Part shown: positions 8,805 to 24,700 of the stretch, one piece after another | Numbering within the stretch: the first letter of the stretch is position 1 | Layout: each line of letters starts with the position of its first letter | NCBI GenBank assembly: GCA_910575615.1 | Contig: CAJTEX010000008.1 | Coordinates: 1-64,000 of the forward strand | Direction: 5' to 3' | From: Bacteroidales bacterium | Lineage (GTDB): Bacteria; Bacteroidota; Bacteroidia; Bacteroidales; Muribaculaceae | Length of the DNA: 64,000 bases | Translations under genes and position numbers: made by a program | The notes under the pieces: model-generated | The model's input: only the letters and a program-made list of their open reading frames with translations | Databases searched by the model: none | Told to the model about the DNA's origin: nothing

Positions 8805-9575
8805 ATGAAGAAAAACCTGTTTGCTATCCTGGCATTGCCGGCACTGGTGGCGGTGTCATGCTCCAATGAGGAGCCGATTTCGCTTGAGGGTTCCTCGGAG
8901 GGTAATGTCACCTTCGTGGCCCAGCTCCCCGGCGGCATCAATTCGCGTAGCTTTGCCGACGGCACAACGGCCACACGCCTCTCTTACGCGGTCTATGAGA
9001 CCGGCACTACCACTCCGCTGCTCAAGAGCGGCGATCCCGGCGCGCCTGCTGCCACATTCACCGGCCTGCAGACCCAGCTTTCGCTCAACCTCGCCCAGGG
9101 CAAGAGCTATGACATCATCTTCTGGGCCGACCAGCCCGGCAACAGCGCCTACACCTTCGACGCTACCACCCAGAGCGTGACCGTCAACTACCAGGGGCTG
9201 AAAAGCAACGACGAGACCCGCGACGCGTTCTTCCAGGTGGAGAAGGGCCTCGCGGTCAATGGCCCTGTGCAGAAGACCATCAGCCTTTACCGTCCGTTCG
9301 CCCAGATCAATGTCGGCACCAACGACCTCTCAGCCGCCGGTGTCTCCCTCGGCGAGACCAGGCTGACCGTCGACAATGTCTACTCCAAGCTCAACCTCTT
9401 AACCGGTGTCGCTTCCGACCCTGTCGAGGTGATTTATGACTTCGCCACGCTTCCCGAGGGGGAGACATTCCCCGTGGCAGGCTACGAGTATCTGTCGATG
9501 AACTACATCCTCTCCGGCACCGAGGTGCTTGACGGCAATGTCAACACTACCCAGAAACACGGCTCTTTCATTTAA
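8805..9575 (+). CDS. DUF6562-type fimbrillin-like surface lipoprotein, N-terminal part cut by an inserted element
   Basis: The first 251 codons belong to a lipoprotein (LALPALVAVSC, Cys19) with a DUF6562-like beta domain: NVTFVAQLPGGINSRSFADG, YDIIFWADQPGNSAYTFD, KSNDETRDAFFQVEKGLAV and ISLYRPFAQINVGTNDL. At codon 252 the 178-base element intrudes and ends the frame after HGSFI. Taking out the element and one copy of the 9-base duplication restores TTQKELVNCSFEV in frame with 9745-11502, giving an original protein of about 836 residues. As it stands only a truncated lipoprotein can be made. It lies 73 bases after the FimB/Mfa2 gene. Confidence 0.85.
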   Translation: MKKNLFAILALPALVAVSCSNEEPISLEGSSEGNVTFVAQLPGGINSRSFADGTTATRLSYAVYETGTTTPLLKSGDPGAPAATFTGLQTQLSLNLAQGKSYDIIFWADQPGNSAYTFDATTQSVTVNYQGLKSNDETRDAFFQVEKGLAVNGPVQKTISLYRPFAQINVGTNDLSAAGVSLGETRLTVDNVYSKLNLLTGVASDPVEVIYDFATLPEGETFPVAGYEYLSMNYILSGTEVLDGNVNTTQKHGSFI

Positions 9576-9735
9576 CTTTGATGCTACAATGCGCCACTGT
9601 TAATCAAGTAGTTATATGTGGCAGTTACGCAATGGCTGTGTTAATCTCATTTTGGATAAAAGGGTTAATGGCTTTTAACTAACTATCAGTCATGCACTTT
9701 GAAAATTCCAAGCATTTTTAAATGAAAGAGCCGTG
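9558..9735 (+). mobile_element. 178-base MITE-like element, copy 1 (inside the DUF6562 gene)
   Basis: The element runs from CACGGCTCTTTCATTTAA (9558-9575) to its exact reverse complement (9718-9735). The flanks carry a perfect 9-base duplication, ACCCAGAAA, at 9549-9557 and 9736-9744, so the insertion is recent in sequence terms. The interior has no gene and is AT-rich. A copy of identical length lies at 24917-25094 in the opposite orientation. The size, inverted ends and target duplication identify a non-autonomous transposable element; the transposase that moves it is not in the window. Its TAACTTTG (9572-9579) resembles a -7 box but has no matching -33. Confidence 0.93.
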
Positions 9736-11502
9736 ACCCAGAAAGAGCTTGTCAACTGCTCATTTGAGGTGGTCGACGCCAACGGACAGCCCGTCAACAC
9801 ACTTACCCTCAGCAACCTCCCCGTGCAGCGCAATTACCGCACCAACATCTACGGCGCGCTTCTCACCTCACAGGTCGACTACACTATCGAAATCAAACCC
9901 GGATTCAACGAGCCCGGTTTCGACCACGAGGTCGTCGACATCCCCGCCGGCAAGATCATGATGGGCGGCCAGCTCTTCGAGACCATCGGTGACGCGCTCG
10001 CCGCAGTTTCCGGCACCGACGCTGAGCTGATGCTCGGTGAAGGCACATTCATCCTCCCGGCGACATTCAACGCCCTCGCTTCTGTCTCCATCGACGGCGC
10101 AGGCGTGGCCAAGGTGGTGTATCCCGAAGGTGTGGCCAACATCGACGCTACCGGTGCTGCCGTGACCCTGAAGAATGTCACATTCAGCACCCCGGCCATT
10201 GCCGGGTCTAATTTCCCCGGTTTCAGCAACGCGAAAACCGAGACCTATGACAACGTGAACTTCGTCGACGGCTGTCTTGCCCCGCTTTGCGAGGAGCTGG
10301 TAATCCGCAACTCGACATTCACCGTCAATCCCGAGGCCAACCTCGACACTCAGTACAAATATGCCCTCAGCTTCCGTTACCGCAACGGCGGCAAGGTGCA
10401 GAAAGGTACCATCACCGACACTGAGTTCATAACCCATATGGGCACCGCCGTTACCGCCTACAACTGCGCCACAGACCTGACCTTTGAAGGCTGCCGCTTC
10501 ACCAACACCTTCTCAGGCGACGCTCTCAAGGATGCCCAGTCGGCAGTGGTCTATGCCAACGCCCAGGCCACAGGCGAGTTCAAGCACACACTGGTGATGA
10601 ACAACTGCTCGCAGACCGGTTTCCTCGGCCATTACCTCTCCGACAGCAAGCTCTGGGCTGCCAAGACGGGCCAGATGCTCTCAGTGACCATCGACGGAGT
10701 GGAGCAGGTGCAGCCGGTTGTGACTACAGACCGCAAGAATTTCACCCTCCATTCACCCGCCGCCCTCGGCATCATCGCCAAGATGGTCAACGAGGGATAC
10801 TGGCGAGACGGAGTCTTCGCTGCTGACCGCATGTCGGGCTGCACCGTCAAGCTCGCCGCTGACATCGACATGGCCGGAGTGGCGTTCACCCCCATCGGCG
10901 TTAACATCAACGCTTATCCCAGCAAGCATTTCGCCGGGACTTTCGACGGACAGGGCCACACCATCAGCAACCTCACCGCCTCTGACAACACCTCCAACTA
11001 TGCCGCTGCCGGGCTTTTCGGCGGCCTTGTCGGAAAGGTGAGTAATGTGATACTGCGCGATGTCAACATCTCCAGCACCCATTATGCCGGCGGCATCGCG
11101 GGATATGTCGACAATGAGACCGGTTCGGTCATCTCCGACTGCCAGGTGATTGGCGGTACCATCACCTCCACCACCGAGCTGGTTGGCGGTTCATGGGACA
11201 ACGGTGACAAGGCCGGTGGCATCCTCGGCTACGGCTGCGTCAACAAAGACGCTGTCACAGGCTGCCACGTAGAGAATGTGACCATCAAGGCATACCGCCA
11301 TTTCGCTCCCATCGTGGGCTACGCAGGCACCCCGGCCAACGTCACCGGCAACACCGCCGCCAATGTGACCCTCGTATGGGACGGCACCAACGATTACAAG
11401 AACTTCGGCACTGTCGACAATGTGCCTTTCGGTGAAATCGTGGGCAATGTCAAGGGCGCTCTTGCCGGCAACACCGCCACATCGATTACACTTCCCCAGT
11501 AA
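9733..11502 (+). pseudogene. C-terminal part of the split DUF6562/GLUG surface protein
   Basis: About 586 codons continue the interrupted gene. No proper start remains: the open frame can begin only with a GTG that is the last three bases of the element. Visible parts are the end of the DUF6562 domain (PVNTLTLSNLPVQRNYRTNIYG), a region of short beta repeats resembling a right-handed helix (about 9.95-10.6 kb), and two or three GLUG-like motifs near the end (FAGTFDGQGHTISNLTA, GLFGGLVGKVSNVILRDVNI, YAGGIAGYVDNETG). Such proteins are large surface adhesins or fibre tips. The gene is intact apart from the insertion. A hairpin terminator follows. Confidence 0.85.
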
Positions 11503-14863: not shown

Positions 14864-15166
14864 ATGCATCTAACACCCAAAGAGCTTGACAAGCTCAAAC
14901 TGCTGTCGCTTGGAATGATTGCCGAGCGCAGACTCAACAAGGGATTGAAACTCAATTATCCCGAATAGGTAGCGTATATCACATCCTGTGCCCTCGAGGG
15001 CGCCAGGGAGGGGAAAACAGTAGAGGAGGTGATGCACGACGCCGCCAATGTCCTGAAAAAAGAGCAGGTCATGGAGGGTGTAGCCGACATGATCGACCTC
15101 CTGCAGGTCGAGGCTGTCTTCACCGACGGCTCCCGCCTTGTCAGCATCCACCATCCCATCAAGTGA
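14864..15166 (+). pseudogene. ureA: Urease gamma subunit UreA, interrupted by an amber codon
   Basis: The frame begins [21 protein letters not shown] and reads through KLNYPE, then TAG at 14966-14968, then [22 protein letters not shown] and [17 protein letters not shown], stopping at TGA. Reading the TAG as a residue gives the normal length of 100 residues, and both sides match UreA closely. Codon 35 is normally Ala or Ser in this position; TCG to TAG would be a single change. The gene therefore cannot give a full subunit unless the stop is suppressed. First gene of the urease locus. Confidence 0.9.
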
Positions 15167-15222
15167 CACGGAGCGATTATCCGCATCAGACCTTTGAAAA
15201 GTAACCAAGAATTCAAAAAGCA

Positions 15223-15801
15223 ATGAGCAACAACGACAATTCCGCGAAGGCTCCCGCAACCGCTCCGAAAGCATCCGACAGTTACGGTACACCTATGGGT
15301 GTTTTCCATGGTAAACCCCAGATCGCATATCCCAGCACTCCGGGCTTCACCCCCAAGGAGTATGTGCCGGTCGGCGGCGTGATTCTCGCCGACACCCCGA
15401 TAGAGTACAATACCAACCGCCGCACAATCACCCTAAAGGTGCGCAACACAGGCGACCGACCCATACAGGTAGGTTCGCATTACCATTTCTTCGAGGTCAA
15501 CCGTTACCTTGAGTTCGACCGTCCGAAGGCCTACGGCTATCATCTCAACATACCCGCCACCACTGCCATCCGTTTCGAACCAGGCGACGAGAAGGAGGTG
15601 GAACTGGTGACATACTGGGGCAAACGCCGCGTGATAGGTTTCAACAACCTCGTCGACGGTTACACAGGCGGGGAGGACTTTCCGACCTATTATCCCAAGT
15701 ATCTCCGCGCCGTCGGGCTGATGAAGGAGTATCAGTTCAAATCAACTCCCGAAGAGACCGACGCCCCGCAGTTCACCGCCGGAGACAGCCCCAAGAATTG
15801 A
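15223..15801 (+). CDS. ureB: Urease beta subunit UreB with extended ends
   Basis: This 192-residue protein has the UreB core at about residues 45-150: [79 protein letters not shown] and [16 protein letters not shown]. Extra polar stretches at both ends make it longer than the usual 100-110 residues. The frame is open and undamaged. UreB is a structural subunit of the (alpha beta gamma)3 nickel enzyme that hydrolyses urea to ammonia and carbamate. With UreA and UreC broken here it has no working partner. It is separated from ureC by a palindromic element. Confidence 0.92.
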
Positions 15802-15816
15802 TTGCGGGGTGAGTCA

Positions 15817-16002
15817 TAAGTAAGTGTTCAAATTTAAACGATAGTAAGTGGAAGGAAATCTTTTATACACTCTGCGGCTTCTTTTTTGCCGCTTCCGGCT
15901 TGTCGCTCAGTCGCATAGCCCGCTATGCTCCATCGCTCCGCACCGGAATCGCCTAAAAAACAAGCTCGCATATTGTATAAATTAAATTCGAACACTTACT
16001 TA
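15817..16002. mobile_element. 186-base palindromic MITE-like element between ureB and ureC
   Basis: The ends form an inverted repeat of 21 bases with one mismatch (left AAGTGTTCAAATTTAA, right TTAAATTCGAACACTT). The inner arms also pair: TTTATACACTCTGCGGCTTC on the left resembles the complement of the right arm near 15935-15980. The centre is GCATAGC/GCTATGC, so the whole unit can fold into one long hairpin. TA dinucleotides at both edges are compatible with a TA target duplication, as in IS630/Tc1-type elements, but this is inference. It sits in the operon spacer, so it breaks no gene but may alter transcription into ureC. Confidence 0.75.
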
Positions 16003-16035
16003 CCGCTTCTCAACAACCTTAAACCAGAAAACGAA

Positions 16036-17208
16036 ATGGCAACTATATCAAGACAAGAGAACAACAATCTGTTTGGCCCGACAGTGGGTGACAAGATCCG
16101 TCTTGCCAATACCGACCTCTACATACAGATTGAAAAAGACCTCCGCGTCTACGGCGACGAGACCGTTTACGGCGGCGGCAAGACCCTGCGCGACGGCATG
16201 GGGACAGCCAATGAGATAACCTCCGATGCCGGGTCGCTCGACCTGGTGATCACCAATGTCACCATCCTCGACCCGATACTCGGAGTCATCAAGGCGGATG
16301 TCGGGGTCAAGGATGGCAAAATCGCCGGTATCGGCAAGGCCGGCAACCCCAACATCATGAAGGTGGCCTCGATGAGCAATGTGCTGCCATCATCCACCAA
16401 CCCCACGCTCCCTTACGGCATCAACTCCCAGGCCGAGCTGTTTGACATGATCATGGTCTGCCACAACCTGAATCCCTCGATTCCCTCTGACGTGGCATTC
16501 GCCGAGAGCCGTGTCCGCCCCGAGACCCAGGCCGCCGAGAACATCTTCCATGACCTCGGCATCATATCTATGGTTTCGTCTGACTCACAGGCGATGGGCC
16601 GAGTGGGAGAGTCGTTCATGCGCACGTTCCAGATGGCTTCCTACATGAAGCAGGTGCGTGGCAGGCTTCCCGAGGACTCCACCGAGAATGACAACTTCCG
16701 TGTCCTCCGCTATCTCGCCCAGATAACCCTCAACCCCGCCATCACCTATGGCATCTCTGATGTCCTTGGTTCAATCGCAGTCGGTAAGATGGCCGACCTC
16801 GTGCTGTGGGAGCCGGCTTTCTTCGGCACCAAGCCCAAAATGGTCATCAAAGGGGGATTCATCAACTGGGCCGACATGGGCGACCCCAACGCCTCGCTGC
16901 CTACTCCCCAGCCCAAGATCATGCGCCCGATGTATGGCGGTTTCGGCAAGGCAATGCCCCAGACCTGCCTGCGCTTTGTCTCCAGGGCCGGATATGAAAA
17001 CGGCGTGAAAGAGTGTGTCGCCACCGACAACATCTTCTACCCCGTCCATGGCATCCGCCAGATTACCAAGGCCGATATGGTGCTTAACGGAGCCATGCCC
17101 CAGATCGAGGTTGACCCCGAGACCTTCAATGTCTACGTCGACGGCGTTCTGGCAACAGTGCCTCCCGCCAAAGAGCTGTCGCTCGGCCAGCTTTACTGGT
17201 TCAGCTGA
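16036..17208 (+). pseudogene. ureC: Urease alpha subunit UreC lacking the nickel-centre region
   Basis: The start at 16036 gives MATISRQENNNLFGPTVGDKI; an upstream in-frame start within the palindromic element is less credible. The front (to GKIAGIGKAGNPN) and back (VLPSSTNPTLPYGINSQAEL to the end LGQLYWFS) match UreC well. Between them the family normally has about 160 residues that carry the metal-ligand histidines, the carbamylated lysine and the HIH motif. Here IMKVASMS joins the two sides directly and in frame. The product would be about 390 residues instead of 570 and cannot hold the bimetallic site. Confidence 0.9.
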
Positions 17209-17232
17209 CAGACACGCCATAAAAATGTTTAT

Positions 17233-17268
17233 CACGGAGATGGGCCTTCATGGCCCATCTCCGTGTTT
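17233..17268 (+). terminator. Terminator after ureC
   Basis: CACGGAGATGGGCC pairs perfectly with GGCCCATCTCCGTG around a short TTCAT loop, followed by TTT. It separates ureABC from the large repeat protein and the accessory genes. Confidence 0.8.
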
Positions 17269-17662
17269 GCTGTCATTGGTGTCTGACATCGAATCCATCC
17301 GCGAATCCTACGGATTCGTGGGCGAAGCGCACAAAGGGGGGATGCTTCCGTGGATATTTCATTATGATTTCCCCGAGGACACTTTGCTTGGATTTCTTTG
17401 GGAACAGACAGCTAAACACTTTTACCAGACACCAATAGTTTGCTGTATGCCTGAAACGATGTTTCGGAGGGGAATGGAGGAAGAGCCACATTAGGTTTAT
17501 TTATCGTTGATTAAGGCTTTCGGGGAGTTACATATGCCAAAAAGGCTACAATTATTAACAAGAATTAACAAATGGGGGGGTAAATAGGGGGATTTTTACG
17601 AAATTTGTGCCGCAATTTACAAATAGGACTTTCTGTCAATATAATTTAATCAACAGTTATCT
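17269..17662. other. Spacer with an unrecognised short coding-like stretch
   Basis: From about 17282 to 17494 on the plus strand a frame reads SDIESIRESYGFVGEAHKG and LLGFLWEQTAKHFYQ before its stop. The composition is protein-like, but there is no start of its own and no family is recognised, so it may be a gene remnant. The following 150 bases are AT-rich and should contain the start region of the large secreted protein, although no clean promoter was found. Confidence 0.35.
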
Positions 17663-20650
17663 ATGAGCAAATGGATGATAACGTTGGCCGCGTCTATATG
17701 CGCGGTCAGTCCGCTTTGCGCGCAAGACGGAATCGACATTTCAAACATCTATCCTGGACTTTTTGATGATCCCACTGTTGTCGGCTCGCTTGACAAACGC
17801 CGCACAATCTATCAGGATCTTGACCAGACAATCGACGGGGTGACCACCCCCGATGGCTTCACCGTCAGGTATCTCTCCAACTCACATGCTTTCACAGGCG
17901 ACGGATGCTTTGTCAACCGCCTTATCAACAGTGTCGGTGTGGCCAACGCCTATGTCGACATGGAGAATATCGTCGATGACGACCTCACCAATGTGGCTAC
18001 TATCGCCAAAGGTGTGGCCGTCAAGGTTACAGTCGACCCTCTGGTGACCATCCGCGACTCCCGCAATTATTACGCCAAGGGAACGACAGCCGGTTTCTAC
18101 CTGGTTGCCAGTGGTTCATCCACCCTTTCGCTCAGCATTGTGAAAGCCATGGCAATCGGTTTCTACCGCGACGGCCAGCTGATAACCACCGTCCCTGTCA
18201 AGGAGGGACAGGATGCGTCGGGCCTCAACCTCTCGCTCGTAAACATCGGCACTGAGGATGGTGTGATGACCCTCACCGCCGAGGCTCCCGAGATTTTCGA
18301 CGAAATATCCCTCAATATGGCCGGAGGTGTGCAGCTTGAGGTGACAAGCGACCTGATGGTTAAATACGCTTTCGCAGGCGCTCCCGCCCGCCACTTCATG
18401 AACCGCGACTATACCAGGGACAATGTGGAGTATGAAGGTGGCATAACCAAGTACAACCGGCTTACAGGGCGCGACCTTTCGCTTGATTACTGCGAGGTAA
18501 TGGGATCGATTCCTACAACACAAAATTATCTCAATTTCATAGAGGATCCTGAAAAGGGGGCCGTGACTGCGGCCATCCTGGCGATAGGAAGCAAAGGTTC
18601 GGCTGAATTCCATGTGGTAGACGGCAATGCTAAAGAGGAAGAGGTCTTCCCCGCCGGCACCGAAGTGGGTTTTGATGTCCGTTCCAAAGGGCTTTTGTCG
18701 CTTGGGGCCGGCAGCGGAAGCTACATTGAGTTCTATTGCCTTGACTATAAGGACAAGCTCTTAAGCAACAAACGTGAATATGTGGCTACCGAGAGGGTGA
18801 CGCTCAATGCCGGTGTGCTTGATGTAAGTCTCGTCGGAGGCAAGGAGCAATGGCTCTCGGCAGTGGCGACAAAGCCGTTTTCCGGGGCTAAACTGTTTAT
18901 GGGTACGGGACTTAATGTCAATGTTGGGGGCACCACCATCAATTACGCCTACATAAAGGAGCCTCCGACGCAGAACCACCGTTGCGACATCGCCTACTCC
19001 TCTGACATCTACCTGGCTCGCGGGACTGCTTCCCACCAGATTTCGTTTGACAATCCGCTCGACCTCCCCGTCGAGTGGGTGCTGGAGGAGATGCCCGAGG
19101 GCTCCGGCGCTGAACTCTATGACGACGGCCTGCTGTATGGCATCGACAAGAAGGGTGTCTATGTGGCGCGCCTCAAAGTGCTGGGAGAAGGACATGAGGA
19201 TTGCGGCGGCATTGTCAGAATCCACTATGACGAGTATGCCGACACCGACAACCCCGGTCAGGAGGGTTGCGCCGACCCGCTGGTCAACGCTCCCGGAGAG
19301 AACCGTTTCGTAGTTTCCGACAAGGTTTATGATTCAAGCGGCTCGCTGTTGTCGATCAGCGACATCAAAGACATCGCCAACCTGGTTGACAATGACATAA
19401 ACAACTACGCCACATATGTCGGCGGCCTCTCGATTGCCGACAATATCTGCATCACCGGTGTTAAATGCGCAGACAGCGAGGATGTCATCAGCGACGGCAC
19501 AGCCGCCAGCCGTATGGGCTTCGTGGTGGAGGAGAGTGTCGACGGCTTGAATGTAAAGGCCCTCGAGTTCCTCCAGATACGTTGCTATTACAAGGGCGAG
19601 GAGGTCTACCGCCATATCGTCGATGAGTCAAACACCGTGTCGGTGCAGGCCATCGGCACCAGCAAGACCACCAAGATGCGTTACTCCATCGAGGTGCCTG
19701 CCGGTCATATGGTCGATGAAATCCAGCTCTGGACCAGCGGTGTGCTGAAGCTCAACATCTCCAACATCAAGATTTTCTATCCCTTCGTGGGTGAGGCCGA
19801 CTCCCCCTGCAACTCCCTGCTGGGATGCAACGGCGAGCTTGTCAACGTCCATGCCTCGGCGGTTCCTCTCCAGGCCGGTGCGGTGAATGTCGCCCAGTTT
19901 GTCAACAACCTCAGCTACCTTGTAGATGACAACTACGACAGCTACATGGCTGTGCAGAACACCGTGTCGGTGGGCAACGGCGTGAAGGTGCTTGTCGACC
20001 TCGGCCGTCGTGTCCACACCTCCAACCATGTCGGCATCATCGTCGACGCGCGCACCCTCCTGGCCGGAATCAAGGCCGGTGACTGGCTGACCGTGCGTCT
20101 CCACGACTCCACTCTTGCCCCGGCAACCATGGCCCTCGACGCCGAGGCCCAGGCCGACGACTCTACGGTCACCGATGAGTTCGCCAACTGGGGTGTCGCC
20201 GATGTCAAGGTGGCCGGTTCGGGCGAAAAGCGTGCGCTTTATTTCTCCCCCACAAAACCGTTTGACCAGATCGAGCTTGAAATCGCCGGAATCGCCGGGG
20301 TGGCCGACACCCAGAAGTTCTACGGTATCTGCACACGCGGCGACGCCGACAACAATGGTGTGCCCGACTGCATGGAGACTTACGTCGACCCGACCGTGTC
20401 GGGCGTGGACACCCCCGCGCTTGCCGACAAGGCTCTCGTTGTGACCGTCAACGGCGGCCTGGTGACCGCGAGCTGTCCCGGGGCATCCATCTCGCGTCTG
20501 CTCGTGTATGACCTGCAAGGCAACGCAGTCGACGGGGCCGACGGCCTGGGGCTTTCAGAAGCCTCAATGCGTCTGGAGCCGGGCATCCACATCTTCGAGG
20601 TGGTCTTTGCCGACGGCACCGCCCGCGCGCTGAAGGTTTCCATCCGATAA
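17663..20650 (+). CDS. Large secreted protein with four internal repeats and a type IX-like tail
   Basis: This 995-residue protein has a signal peptide (MITLAASICAVSPLCAQ). Four diverged repeats of about 145 residues are visible at roughly 100-240, 288-432, 570-715 and 750-895. Each opens with a (L/I)VDDDxxNxAT-type segment, has GTxxGFxV in the middle and closes with xFDxIxLxxAG. A separate beta domain lies at 440-520. Residues 920-995 look like a type IX sorting tail (RLLVYDLQGNAV... LEPGIHIFEVVFADGTARALKVSIR). It may be a surface adhesin or binding protein. Its position between ureC and ureE suggests insertion into an older operon. Function unknown. Confidence 0.75.
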   Translation: MSKWMITLAASICAVSPLCAQDGIDISNIYPGLFDDPTVVGSLDKRRTIYQDLDQTIDGVTTPDGFTVRYLSNSHAFTGDGCFVNRLINSVGVANAYVDMENIVDDDLTNVATIAKGVAVKVTVDPLVTIRDSRNYYAKGTTAGFYLVASGSSTLSLSIVKAMAIGFYRDGQLITTVPVKEGQDASGLNLSLVNIGTEDGVMTLTAEAPEIFDEISLNMAGGVQLEVTSDLMVKYAFAGAPARHFMNRDYTRDNVEYEGGITKYNRLTGRDLSLDYCEVMGSIPTTQNYLNFIEDPEKGAVTAAILAIGSKGSAEFHVVDGNAKEEEVFPAGTEVGFDVRSKGLLSLGAGSGSYIEFYCLDYKDKLLSNKREYVATERVTLNAGVLDVSLVGGKEQWLSAVATKPFSGAKLFMGTGLNVNVGGTTINYAYIKEPPTQNHRCDIAYSSDIYLARGTASHQISFDNPLDLPVEWVLEEMPEGSGAELYDDGLLYGIDKKGVYVARLKVLGEGHEDCGGIVRIHYDEYADTDNPGQEGCADPLVNAPGENRFVVSDKVYDSSGSLLSISDIKDIANLVDNDINNYATYVGGLSIADNICITGVKCADSEDVISDGTAASRMGFVVEESVDGLNVKALEFLQIRCYYKGEEVYRHIVDESNTVSVQAIGTSKTTKMRYSIEVPAGHMVDEIQLWTSGVLKLNISNIKIFYPFVGEADSPCNSLLGCNGELVNVHASAVPLQAGAVNVAQFVNNLSYLVDDNYDSYMAVQNTVSVGNGVKVLVDLGRRVHTSNHVGIIVDARTLLAGIKAGDWLTVRLHDSTLAPATMALDAEAQADDSTVTDEFANWGVADVKVAGSGEKRALYFSPTKPFDQIELEIAGIAGVADTQKFYGICTRGDADNNGVPDCMETYVDPTVSGVDTPALADKALVVTVNGGLVTASCPGASISRLLVYDLQGNAVDGADGLGLSEASMRLEPGIHIFEVVFADGTARALKVSIR

Positions 20651-20676
20651 CCCACAGTTAATCCATAAGACCCTAG

Positions 20677-20710
20677 GAGGCCATCCGGGATTTTCCCGGG
20701 TGGCCTCTTT
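20677..20710 (+). terminator. Terminator after the repeat protein
   Basis: GAGGCCATCCGGGA pairs with CCCGGGTGGCCTC around TTTT, with one mismatch, and ends in TTT. Confidence 0.8.
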
Positions 20711-20846
20711 GTATGTCGGCGGCGGGGCTGGAAGATTGCGTGGCGGTCTCAACTATTTTGCCGTGGAGTTGTTTTAACATTGAACATACGGGGGCTCTCC
20801 GCTGACAATGATTTTTCAACTGTTTATTTACCCAAATAGATAAGAA

Positions 20847-21425
20847 ATGGATGTTATAACAGAAGTGATCGGCAATATCCATCAGCCTGAATGGGCCGCC
20901 CGTGTCGATGACTGCCATATCGAGACGGTTTTCCTCGACCAGTGGACGGCACAGAAAAGCCGTTTCCTTGCCAAGGGTGACCACGGCAACGAGTATCCGG
21001 TGGCACTCACCCGAGGCTCGCGTATCGCCGATGGCGACATCATCGCCTATGACCCCGAGGCGCGCCGTGCCGCCGTTTTGCGCCTCGACCTCAACAATGT
21101 CTTGGTGATTGACCTGTCGAAGTTGTCGTCGCTTTCCCCCGAGGATATCATACGCGTCAGTGTGGAGCTGGGCCATGCCATCGGCAACCAGCTCTGGCCC
21201 GCTGTGGTAAAGGGGACAAAAGTCTATGTGCCGCTTACCGTCGACAAGAAGGTGATGCTGTCCGTGATGGAGACCCACAACATCGACAACATCACCTATG
21301 AGTTCCAGGAGGGGAAGGACATCATCCCGTTTCTTGCCCCGGTCGAGCTGCGCCGTCTCTTCGGAGGGGCGGGGCATAACAACACCGACCTTGAACACCC
21401 CCACCATCACCACCATCATCATTGA
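20847..21425 (+). CDS. ureE: Urease accessory nickel chaperone UreE with His-rich tail
   Basis: This 192-residue protein has a UreE N-terminal domain (IGNIHQPEWAARVDDCHIETVFLDQW... RFLAKGDHGNEYPVAL) and a C-terminal metal-binding domain (SVELGHAIGNQLWPAVVKGTKVYVPLTVDKKVMLSVM). The tail ends GHNNTDLEHP plus seven histidines, a common nickel-binding tail in this family. UreE delivers nickel to the UreDFG complex. The frame is undamaged and of normal length. It is transcribed with ureF, ureG and ureD. It probably starts its own transcript after the terminator at 20.7 kb. Confidence 0.9.
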   Translation: MDVITEVIGNIHQPEWAARVDDCHIETVFLDQWTAQKSRFLAKGDHGNEYPVALTRGSRIADGDIIAYDPEARRAAVLRLDLNNVLVIDLSKLSSLSPEDIIRVSVELGHAIGNQLWPAVVKGTKVYVPLTVDKKVMLSVMETHNIDNITYEFQEGKDIIPFLAPVELRRLFGGAGHNNTDLEHPHHHHHHH

Positions 21426-21528
21426 CCCAAAAACCACAATCCGCAATCGCCGCTCGTTCGCGGCCACCCGTGAATTGCCTTTGCCCTGGTCGCGCCACGG
21501 GGCGGTTGCGGATTCAATACTGTAAGTT

Positions 21529-22209
21529 ATGAAAGTAATGCGCCTGCTGCAGATGACCGACTCCACCTTCCCCGTCGGCACCTTCTCGTTTTCCAACGGA
21601 CTCGAGACTGCCGCTTATGAGGGGATGGTAAACGACGCGGCCTCGCTTGAGCAATATGCCAGATCGGTGGCTCTCCAGGGAGCTTTCTCCGACGGCGTGG
21701 CCGCCCTTCTTGCCTACCGCGAGGCGATGAAGAACAACTTGCGCGGAGTCGAGGAGGTCGACAGCCAGCTGATGCTCTTCAAGATGAACGACGAGGCCCG
21801 CACTATGCTTCAGCGCATGGGGCGCAAGATGGCCGAGTTGTCGGAGCGGTTCTACCCCGACAACCGCATCATATCGCTCTGGCACCGTGACATCAAGGAG
21901 GAGCTTACGCCGGGCAGTTTCCCTGTGGCGCAAGGGCTTGCTTTCGCCGCCGAGGGGCTGAGCGAGGAGGAGCTTTTCGCCTCCCACCAGTATGGAGTGA
22001 TAAACATGGTGCTGGGAGCGGCCCTGCGCTGCGTGAGGGTGTCTCATTTCGACACCCAGGAAATTCTTTTCCGCCTGTCGGAGGATGTGCCCAGGCTTTA
22101 CGAGAAGGCGCGCCTGATGAGGGTGGACGACATGAACTCTTTCGTCCCCGAGGCCGACATCTTCGCCTCGCTCCACGAGAAGGGGAATATGAGAATGTTC
22201 ATGAGCTGA
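21529..22209 (+). CDS. ureF: Urease accessory protein UreF
   Basis: This 226-residue helical protein is recognised by [29 protein letters not shown] at the front, [46 protein letters not shown] and [21 protein letters not shown]. UreF binds UreD and UreG and controls the GTPase step of nickel insertion. The length is normal and no damage is visible. It lies about 100 bases after ureE and 32 bases before ureG. It is one of three intact genes left in a locus whose catalytic subunit is destroyed. Confidence 0.92.
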
Positions 22210-22241
22210 GTTTTTTACCGTTGATTTGCGACACAACCAAT

Positions 22242-22859
22242 ATGAGTACTTGTAGAATCGGTATCGGAGGACCCGTTGGTTCGGGAAAGACCTCCTTGAT
22301 TGAAGCCATAACCCCGCGTCTTATCGACAAGGGTTACAAGGTGTTGATCATCACAAACGACATCGTCACCACGGAGGACGCCGAGCATGTCCGCAAAATC
22401 CTGAAGGGGGTGCTGGCCGAAGACCGCATCATCGGTGTGGAGACCGGCGCGTGTCCCCACACGGCTGTCCGCGAAGACCCGTCTATGAACATCGCGGCTG
22501 TCGAGGAGATGGAGGCCAAGTTTCCTGATGCCGACATCGTGTGCATCGAGTAGGGAGGCGACAACCTGACGCTTACCTTCTCTCCCGCGCTGGTCGACTT
22601 CTTCATCTATGTGATTGATGTGGCCGCCGGCGACAAGATTCCGCGCAAGGATGGCCCGGGCATCTCGCAGAGCGACATACTTGTAATCAACAAGACCGAC
22701 CTCGCGCCTTATGTGGGGGCCTCGCTTGAGGTCATGGACCATGATTCCAAGCTGATGCGTCCCGGCAAGCCTTTTGTCTTCACCAATTCCATGACCGGTG
22801 AGGGGATTGACGAGCTGATCGGGCTTATCCACAAGATGGCGCTTTTCGACAAGAAGTAA
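22242..22859 (+). pseudogene. ureG: Urease accessory GTPase UreG, interrupted by an amber codon
   Basis: Reading from ATG 22242 gives [20 protein letters not shown] (P-loop), [32 protein letters not shown], then VCIE followed by TAG at 22551-22553, then [32 protein letters not shown] and [11 protein letters not shown] (guanine-specificity NKxD). The family has ESGGDNL here, so a Ser codon has become TAG. Reading through would give the normal 205 residues. The stop removes the base-recognition motif and the effector regions, so the GTPase is dead unless suppressed. Confidence 0.92.
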
Positions 22860-22879
22860 ACTCCATAACATCATCCCCC

Positions 22880-23701
22880 ATGAAGGAAACGAGAATATTC
22901 CGACATTCCGGTCGTAAGTTTCGACGACGCGCCTGAGATGGCTCCCTACCTTGCGCCGCCACGGGCGATGTATGTGGGCGCGCCGGGCAAACATGGTTAC
23001 CTCAATCTCGGTTTCGAGCTTGACGCGTCGGGCAAGTCGATATTGCGCGAGCTCGACCGCCGCGCCCCGCTGATTGTCCAGCAGGAGCTGTATTTCGACG
23101 AGGAACTGCCTGGGATGCCATGCGTCTACATCCTTTCGTCGGGCGGCCCCAACATCGACGGCGACCGTTACACCCAGAATATCACTGTCGGCAAGGGCGC
23201 GATGGTCTTTGTCTCCACCGGGGCCGCTACGAAGCTGGCTGAGATGAAAGACAACTATTCGGGGCTGTCGCAGGTGATTTACGTGGAGGAGGGGGATACC
23301 TTGAGTTCCTTCCCGAGCCTGTGATTCCCTGTCGCCACACGCGTTTCATATCAGACACCAGGATGATTGTCCATCCGTCGGCCGCGGTGTTTTATTCCGA
23401 GATTTTCATGGGTGGCCGCAAATATTACAGCGAGGGGGAGATGTTTTGCTACGACATCCTGTCGGTATGCACCCATGGCGAACGTCCCGACGGCCGTCAG
23501 CTCTTCCGTGAGAAGTTCATAATCGATCCTGACAATTGCCGCCTGCGTGATGTGGGGATTATGCACGGCTATGATATCTTTGCCAATGTGGTGGTGCTTG
23601 CGCCCCCCGAGAAAGCCAAGGAGATTTATGACGAGACTGCGGCGTTTATCAACCGCGACACCTATGTCTCGGCCGGAATCACCCTCACATATGCGAGGGT
23701 C
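22880..23701 (+). pseudogene. ureD: Urease accessory protein UreD, with two frameshifts and a lost C-terminus
   Basis: From ATG 22880 (MKETRIF) an extra C at 22900/22901 shifts the frame; skipping it gives DIPVVSFDDAPEMAPYLAPP. The frame then runs through YLNLGFELDASGKSILRELD and GMPCVYILSSGGPNIDGDRYTQNI. It breaks again at 23303/23304, where one G is missing: TLSSFPS in the present frame, TLEFLPEPVIPCRHTRF when restored. The rest (MIVHPSAAVFYSEIFMGGRKYYSEGE) ends at SAGITLTYA, where the family should continue for some tens of residues. UreD is the scaffold of the nickel-insertion complex. Confidence 0.88.
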
Positions 23702-24700
23702 TTTCGCAAGTCGCTGGTCACATTGCCCTTCATACTGCTCATCGGGGTCATGAACCCGGTGTTTGACCATAGGGTTGCGATGACGGTTTGCGGGGTGGAT
23801 GTCTGGGCCGGATGGATATCGTTCATTTCGATAGTAGTCCGCGGACTGTTGTCGGTCCAGGCGGCGTTGTTGCTGGTGTATGTCTGCGGCTTCAACGGAG
23901 TCTGCCGCGCGCTGGGGCGGCTCGGGTTGCCGTCAGTGATGGTGACGCAGCTGCTGATGGTCAGCCGCTACATGCAGACCCTGGGGGAGGAGGCGGTGAC
24001 GATGCACCGCGCCCGCCAGTCGCGCGGGTATGGCCGCCGAAATTATCCGATACGGGAATGGGGCCCGTTATTCTCTATCGACAAGGGGGAGAAGGTGGCG
24101 CTGCTGGGATTGAACGGTGCTGGCAAGTCGACGCTGCTGTTGCAGACCAATGGCCTGCTGTCGCCAGCCTCTGGAAGAGTCGATGTCGACGGTGTCGCGC
24201 TGACAAAGAAAACCGTGACGCTGGCCCGTCAGAAGGTCGGCATGGTGTTTCAGAACGCCGATGACCAGCTTTTCTCGCCGACAGTCTACGCTGATGTCGC
24301 CTTCGGACCTCAGATGATGAAGCTTCCGGCTGATGAGGTTGACCGCCGGGTACGCGAGGCGCTTGAGGGGATAGGCGCGTCACGACTGATTGACCGTCAG
24401 GCCACAAGGCTTTCGGGAGGCGAACGCCGTATGGTGGCCATTGCGACGGTCTTGTCAATGCGTCCTTCAATACTCGTCCTTGACGAACCGACATCTTATC
24501 TCGACTTGCGTGCCAGGAATGCCCTTTGCTCACTGTTGAGGCGGCTCCCGCAGGCGATGTTGCTTGCCACTCATAATCTCGACCTCGCGCGCGACATATG
24601 TTCCCGCTCGATTCTCCTCGACCGGGGATGTGTGGTTTTCGACGGACCCACCGATGAGGCTGTCGACCGCCTGGTATCTCTCGCAGGCGAGAACGGCTGA
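23321..24700 (+). CDS. Open frame welding UreD, CbiQ and CbiO fragments
   Basis: This 459-codon frame joins three fragments without a stop: the back of UreD (codons 1-126), a piece of the CbiQ-type membrane component (about 127-251) and most of a CbiO-type ATPase (about 252-459). Each junction keeps the frame. It most likely results from deletions in a nickel ECF transporter cluster that followed ureD. A stable product is doubtful because UreD lacks its start and CbiQ both ends. Component details are in the separate entries. Confidence 0.7.
   Translation: MIPCRHTRFISDTRMIVHPSAAVFYSEIFMGGRKYYSEGEMFCYDILSVCTHGERPDGRQLFREKFIIDPDNCRLRDVGIMHGYDIFANVVVLAPPEKAKEIYDETAAFINRDTYVSAGITLTYARVFRKSLVTLPFILLIGVMNPVFDHRVAMTVCGVDVWAGWISFISIVVRGLLSVQAALLLVYVCGFNGVCRALGRLGLPSVMVTQLLMVSRYMQTLGEEAVTMHRARQSRGYGRRNYPIREWGPLFSIDKGEKVALLGLNGAGKSTLLLQTNGLLSPASGRVDVDGVALTKKTVTLARQKVGMVFQNADDQLFSPTVYADVAFGPQMMKLPADEVDRRVREALEGIGASRLIDRQATRLSGGERRMVAIATVLSMRPSILVLDEPTSYLDLRARNALCSLLRRLPQAMLLATHNLDLARDICSRSILLDRGCVVFDGPTDEAVDRLVSLAGENG
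23702..24073 (+). pseudogene. cbiQ: Internal fragment of an ECF transporter T component (CbiQ-like)
   Basis: About 124 codons, FRKSLVTLPFILLIGVMNPVFD through LSVQAALLLVYVCGFNGVCRAL to LLMVSRYMQTLGEEAVTMHRARQSRGYG, match the middle of CbiQ/NikQ. They include the A-R-x-S-R-G-type coupling motif that touches the ATPase. The first membrane region and the last roughly 50 residues are absent. The protein normally forms the membrane coupling unit of a cobalt or nickel importer. Its place after urease genes points to nickel supply for urease, now lost. No CbiM substrate-binding gene is present in the window. Confidence 0.8.
24074..24700 (+). pseudogene. cbiO: ECF transporter ATPase (CbiO-like) lacking its N-terminus
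   Basis: The fragment starts inside the first beta region (SIDKGEKVALLGLNGAGKSTLL, containing Walker A) and carries the Q loop (GMVFQNADDQLFSPTVYADV), the LSGGE signature, Walker B (SILVLDEPTSYLDL) and the His switch (LLATHNL). About 25-30 residues including the usual start and the A-loop aromatic are missing and are replaced by the CbiQ fragment. The ATPase core is otherwise complete. It would have powered a nickel or cobalt ECF importer together with CbiQ. A gene-free AT-rich spacer with a promoter follows. Confidence 0.8.

Follow-up and report, generated by a model that had tools for sequence, protein, structure and literature searches.

An interrupted urease and nickel-uptake gene cluster in a Muribaculaceae genome, probably pseudogenised very recently

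The urease locus and its lesions

The window, the whole stretch of 64,000 nucleotides analysed here, belongs to a genome of a Bacteroidales bacterium (Muribaculaceae) of 3.13 Mb in 89 contigs, 99.75% complete, and the lesions described below are known from this one assembly and one strain. The nearest relatives of this genome are MAGs, and its urease cluster can be read against those of three urease-bearing congeners, G013 (locus L009), G012 (L010) and G004 (L011), of which G012 is the sister species. In L009 and L011 the order of genes is chrA1, chrA2, folC, ureA, ureB, ureC, ureE, ureF, ureG, ureD, transporters, nikQ, nikO and a GNAT gene, with a urea transporter (PF03253), an MFS transporter and nikM (CbiM plus PDGLE) filling the stretch between ureD and nikQ. 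L010 has the same order with an additional 996-aa gene between ureC and ureE; its urease contig stops inside an open nikM, and neither nikQ nor nikO adjoins the GNAT gene in G012. The window follows its congeners in gene order, with lesions, and its gene content and order are those of clusters that are open in relatives, as is to be found in a pseudogenised urease operon.

The first gene of the cluster, ureA (14864-15166, plus strand, as are the other genes of the cluster), is interrupted by an amber TAG at codon 35 (14966-14968), a site that encodes S, A or T in 74 of the 80 loci where it is readable, among the best 80 of 340 related loci. The following ureB (15223-15801) is open, with 192 aa and a Pfam Urease_beta match. 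Between ureB and ureC lies a MITE-like element of 186 bp (15817-16002), with 21-bp inverted repeats and the ends TAAGTAAGTGTTC, which is absent from the ureB-ureC gap of G012. The element is short, is bounded by terminal inverted repeats and has no coding capacity, and it recurs at the same length in three copies in G009 that are 87-88% identical to it over all 186 bp, which are among the features expected of a MITE. The end pattern occurs in 3 of the 14 genomes of the genus, with G009 accounting for 14 of the 17 matches, and the window's own genome holds one copy of the element and one partial match of 39 bp.

The ureC gene (16036-17208) is open, but is 182 codons shorter than its counterparts and encodes 390 aa, versus 572 in the three congeners. 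The difference is an in-frame deletion of 546 bp near 16354, corresponding to residues 107-288 of the sister protein, and in L010, where this segment is present, its two ends share an imperfect direct repeat, short at about nine bases. Four of the six nickel-site motifs of UreC are absent (H-x-H, K-x-H and two further His motifs), and the two later motifs, which carry the catalytic His and the Asp ligand, are retained. The missing part comprises motifs with five of the six residues that we take to be the nickel ligands. The complete UreC nickel site of a working urease (EC 3.5.1.5) is accordingly not found in the window. About 200 bp of extra sequence, compared with G012, lie downstream of ureC at 17210-17535. 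They are followed by an open gene of 995 aa (17663-20650), situated inside the cluster between ureC and ureE, which is not a urease gene and has no Pfam match. Among the three congeners it is shared only with L010, where it also lies inside an open urease cluster, and dN/dS between the window and G012 is 0.123.

Of the accessory genes, ureE (20847-21425; Pfam UreE_N and UreE_C) and ureF (21529-22209; Pfam UreF) are open, and ureG (22242-22859) is interrupted by an amber TAG at codon 104 (22551-22553), where serine is found in all 70 loci with a readable site among the best 80 of 340. The gap between ureG and ureD measures 9 bp in L009, 240 bp in L010 and about 20 bp in the window; a deletion in the window, suspected by comparison with G012, was dropped, as relatives on the G009 side show that it is the G012 gap that is longer. 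The ureD remnant (22880-23683) carries two frameshifts, near 22885 and 23290, and has lost its 3' end. Directly behind it, and in frame with it, stands a remnant of nikQ, or cbiQ (23684-24050), lacking N- and C-terminal parts, and in frame with this a remnant of nikO, or cbiO (24071-24700), lacking its start. The three pieces form a fusion ORF of 459 aa (23321-24700) with Pfam matches to UreD, CbiQ and ABC_tran. Sized against L009 and L011 only, the loss between ureD and nikQ amounts to about 3.87 kb (3,872 bp and 3,876 bp, respectively) and removes the urea transporter, the MFS transporter, nikM and the start of nikQ, and a further 328-340 bp are missing at the nikQ-nikO junction. All three large deletions (16354; 23684; 24050-24071) preserve the reading frame.

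A preliminary description of the locus had reported amber codons in ureA and ureG, in-frame loss of the nickel centre in ureC, two frameshifts in ureD, truncated and fused cbiQ and cbiO, and open ureB, ureE and ureF. Each of these is borne out, and every lesion named is present when the window is compared with the three congeners' clusters, and disabling lesions lie in essential genes; the losses of the urea transporter, MFS transporter and NikM, the MITE-like element and the open 995-aa gene are additions to that account. Since relatives mostly have serine at both amber sites, it could be asked whether the amber codons are read as sense, which would leave ureA and ureG unbroken. Such recoding would leave the ureC active site incomplete, the ureD frame broken and the transporters missing, and the three tRNAs found within the window, for Glu, His and Ser, have ordinary anticodons. 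It is exceedingly improbable and was rejected, because the other lesions remain.

Confinement of the damage and history of the cluster

One question raised by so many lesions is whether they end where the cluster ends. ORFs of at least 100 aa were taken from five G012 loci and retained if they matched the window at more than 45% identity, ORFs without a match being left out of the count. Of the 38 matched ORFs that lie outside the urease genes, 34 have an open frame across more than 85% of their length. Three of the four flagged are artefacts, over-long or antisense ORF calls that lie over open window genes, and the fourth is L131:11098-11502. Inside the cluster the same test flagged ureC, ureG and ureD and found ureE and ureF open; ureA and ureB were masked by antisense ORFs and were judged by the separate comparison with congeners. 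The damage ends at the edges of the urease-nickel cluster.

Breakage of this kind is rare in related clusters. In the best 80 of 340 related loci, with genes at locus edges counted as open, neither stops nor splits turned up in ureA (76 judged), ureC (80), ureE (75), ureF (72), ureG (70) or ureD (66), and ureB was open in 72 of 76, short in three and split in one (L025). In L025 both ureB (9442-9955) and the urea transporter (15125-16070) are split over two frames, possibly a second decaying cluster or else a sequence error. Stops at gene ends, in the urea transporter of L014, nikM of L021 and L024 and nikO of L021, were dropped as alignment effects.

A second complete urease cluster elsewhere in the genome had been named in the preliminary description as an observation that would overturn it. 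In the window's own genome (89 contigs, 99.75% complete) the sole UreC match is the broken one. CbiM/NikM was not found there either, in a search whose controls matched in three genomes, nor was a urea transporter, in a search that does detect the copies of G012, G013, G004 and G005. The broken genes are thus not backed by a functional urease copy elsewhere in the genome, as expected of a pseudogenised urease operon. The copy in G005 (C7:8346-9221; PF03253) lies in a congener where no UreC was found.

It is conceivable that the lesions are assembly artefacts, arising for example from a mixed-strain bin, and that the living species has a working urease. The division of the genome into 89 contigs would fit such an origin, as would the lack of clear drift in the surviving codons described below. 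However, the damage ends at the cluster border (34 of the 38 flank ORFs being open, and three of the four flagged being artefacts), the 995-aa gene inside the cluster is open, and NikM/CbiM and the urea transporter are not found elsewhere in the own genome. Furthermore, errors of base calling do not account for a 546-bp deletion flanked by short imperfect repeats, for a loss of 3.9 kb or for a complete MITE-like element. An artefact is therefore judged unlikely. Real loss, as the preliminary description had argued, is the better reading, because the lesions differ in kind, including three large losses and a mobile element, and are confined to the cluster, and there is no second UreC in the own genome.

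UreC is present in 4 of the 14 genomes of the genus, and the four species that bear it form one clade with support of 1.000 (folC) and 0.999 (GNAT). Within the clade, the window and G012 are sisters with support of 0.972 by folC but only 0.458 by GNAT. The immediate upstream neighbour of ureA is folC in only three of the 57 loci whose upstream sequence is long enough, and these are L009, L010 and L011. The single clade, together with the folC-adjacent site in congeners, points to a cluster present at the same site in the clade ancestor. Nine of the genomes that lack UreC have retained chrA1-chrA2-folC, and the stretches compared from them, several of which are short, contain no urease remnant; the tenth, G011, which is 71% complete, yielded no close folC match. 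The window lineage is the only one of the four clade members that lost urease.

Selection and the age of the loss

Branch models were fitted with the three congeners, dS being high or saturated for the outer species. The pooled urease genes (1,565 codons) have a background omega of 0.023; the window branch has 0.031 (p = 0.15) and the sister branch 0.024. The surviving codons thus still appear to be under selection, and omega = 1 over the whole window branch is rejected (2 delta lnL 92), although it is not rejected for ureB alone or ureE alone. Relaxation is no stronger in the broken genes (omega 0.024) than in the open ones (0.044). A raised value is seen in ureE alone (0.093, p = 0.006), and likewise in folC alone (0.128, p = 0.002). 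On the same branch the flank control of chrA1, chrA2 and folC rises more than the pooled urease genes do (0.077 against 0.028, p = 0.002), so that the rise of ureE is not telling. At the protein level, UreA is identical to its sister at all 98 compared codons, UreG is 98.0% identical and UreF 96.0%.

A two-phase model places the neutral share at 0.5-1% of the branch from the sister species, with an upper limit of about 2% and zero allowed, zero neutral time lying 0.9 log units below the best value; this corresponds to 13-25 neutral substitutions since the loss, and at most about 45. Because the flank control scores higher, with a best neutral share of 3% though its genes are open, the method cannot distinguish the urease share from zero. 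Given this near-equal fit of zero and the p of 0.15, the codon data alone do not show that selection has ceased. What they do exclude is an older, gradual decay, which was rejected because omega = 1 on the branch is excluded and raising the neutral share to 3% worsens the fit by 4.7 log units for the urease genes. Of the preliminary claim that the locus is decaying, real loss is therefore upheld and long decay is not: the surviving coding sequence shows almost no drift, which argues for a very recent loss. With 2.7% of random changes giving stops, a fraction that assumes a transition weight of 2 (fitted value 1.23), the expectation is 0.4-1.2 stops, compared with two in the locus. For 13-25 neutral substitutions, a yield of two stops together with several deletions is near the upper limit.

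Low omega also invites the thought that the open genes (ureB, ureE, ureF and the ureD-nikQ-nikO fusion) have been retained in some other role, nickel handling for instance. In ureF omega is low at 0.017, and three deletions that are all in frame would occur by chance about 1 time in 27, if each has a one-third chance. Low omega, however, is also what a recent loss predicts, and no drift signal separates open (0.044) from broken (0.024) genes. The GTPase partner UreG is interrupted, NikM has been lost and the urease subunits are dead, and a retained function is held to be very improbable.

The explanation that best accounts for the locus, with a probability of roughly 0.86 judging from the sequence comparisons, is a urease and nickel-uptake cluster that the four-species clade had from its ancestor and that was very recently pseudogenised in the window lineage. 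Urease would have ceased to be needed in this lineage. The ureC deletion, the ureG stop and the ureD frameshifts would each suffice to destroy activity, and more substitutions and deletions, together with the insertion of a mobile element, would then have accumulated unselected. As a doubtful extension, the loss may have been rapid and perhaps favoured, removing urease and the uptake of urea and of nickel as a single unit; the build-up of at least eight separate lesions over a neutral stretch that amounts to about 1%, and to no more than about 2%, of the branch would, just as tentatively, suggest such haste.

Urease loss in Muribaculaceae

Patchiness of urease is familiar in this family. For Muribaculaceae (S24-7), Ormerod et al. 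(2016; PMC4936053) describe urease clusters in twelve genomes and infer that urease was gained laterally once, by the ancestor of the family, and later lost from a subset. Lagkouvardos et al. (2019; PMC6381624) list ureases in 8 of 34 species, full ureolysis genes are reported from an abundant koala S24-7 genome (PMC5697889), and ureases are again noted in the family in PMC11356848. The clusters of the first two papers come from the same family and have the same gene set as the window's cluster, but these papers infer loss from absence, whereas in the window the broken cluster itself is still present. Among the titles and opening lines of abstracts covered, none concerns urease decay in Muribaculaceae. 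Outside the family, Yersinia pestis (PMC4658026) likewise lost urease recently with its structural genes otherwise preserved, by a single ureD frameshift as opposed to several lesions across the cluster and the nickel and urea transporters. Staphylococcus saccharolyticus subclade 2 (PMC6423177) likewise represents loss within a lineage by a small mutation, an insertion in ureB, but with one lesion and about 300 pseudogenes in the genome, unlike the window, where no flank decay is seen. Loss of urease has already been inferred for the family, and the locus appears to be a good example of a known process, ordinary in kind but unusually fresh.

The organism is predicted from its gene content to be urease-negative, as it should be if the lesions are real. 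Homology-based annotation could nevertheless score the genome as urease-positive, because pieces of UreA, UreB, UreC, UreE, UreF, UreG and UreD still match. Urease is patchy in what is a dominant mouse-gut family, a patchiness that published work ascribes to repeated loss, and loss of the enzyme may bear on nitrogen use in the host gut. The window species and G012, one of the close relatives that keep the cluster at this site, make a natural pair for asking what urea use is worth in the gut.
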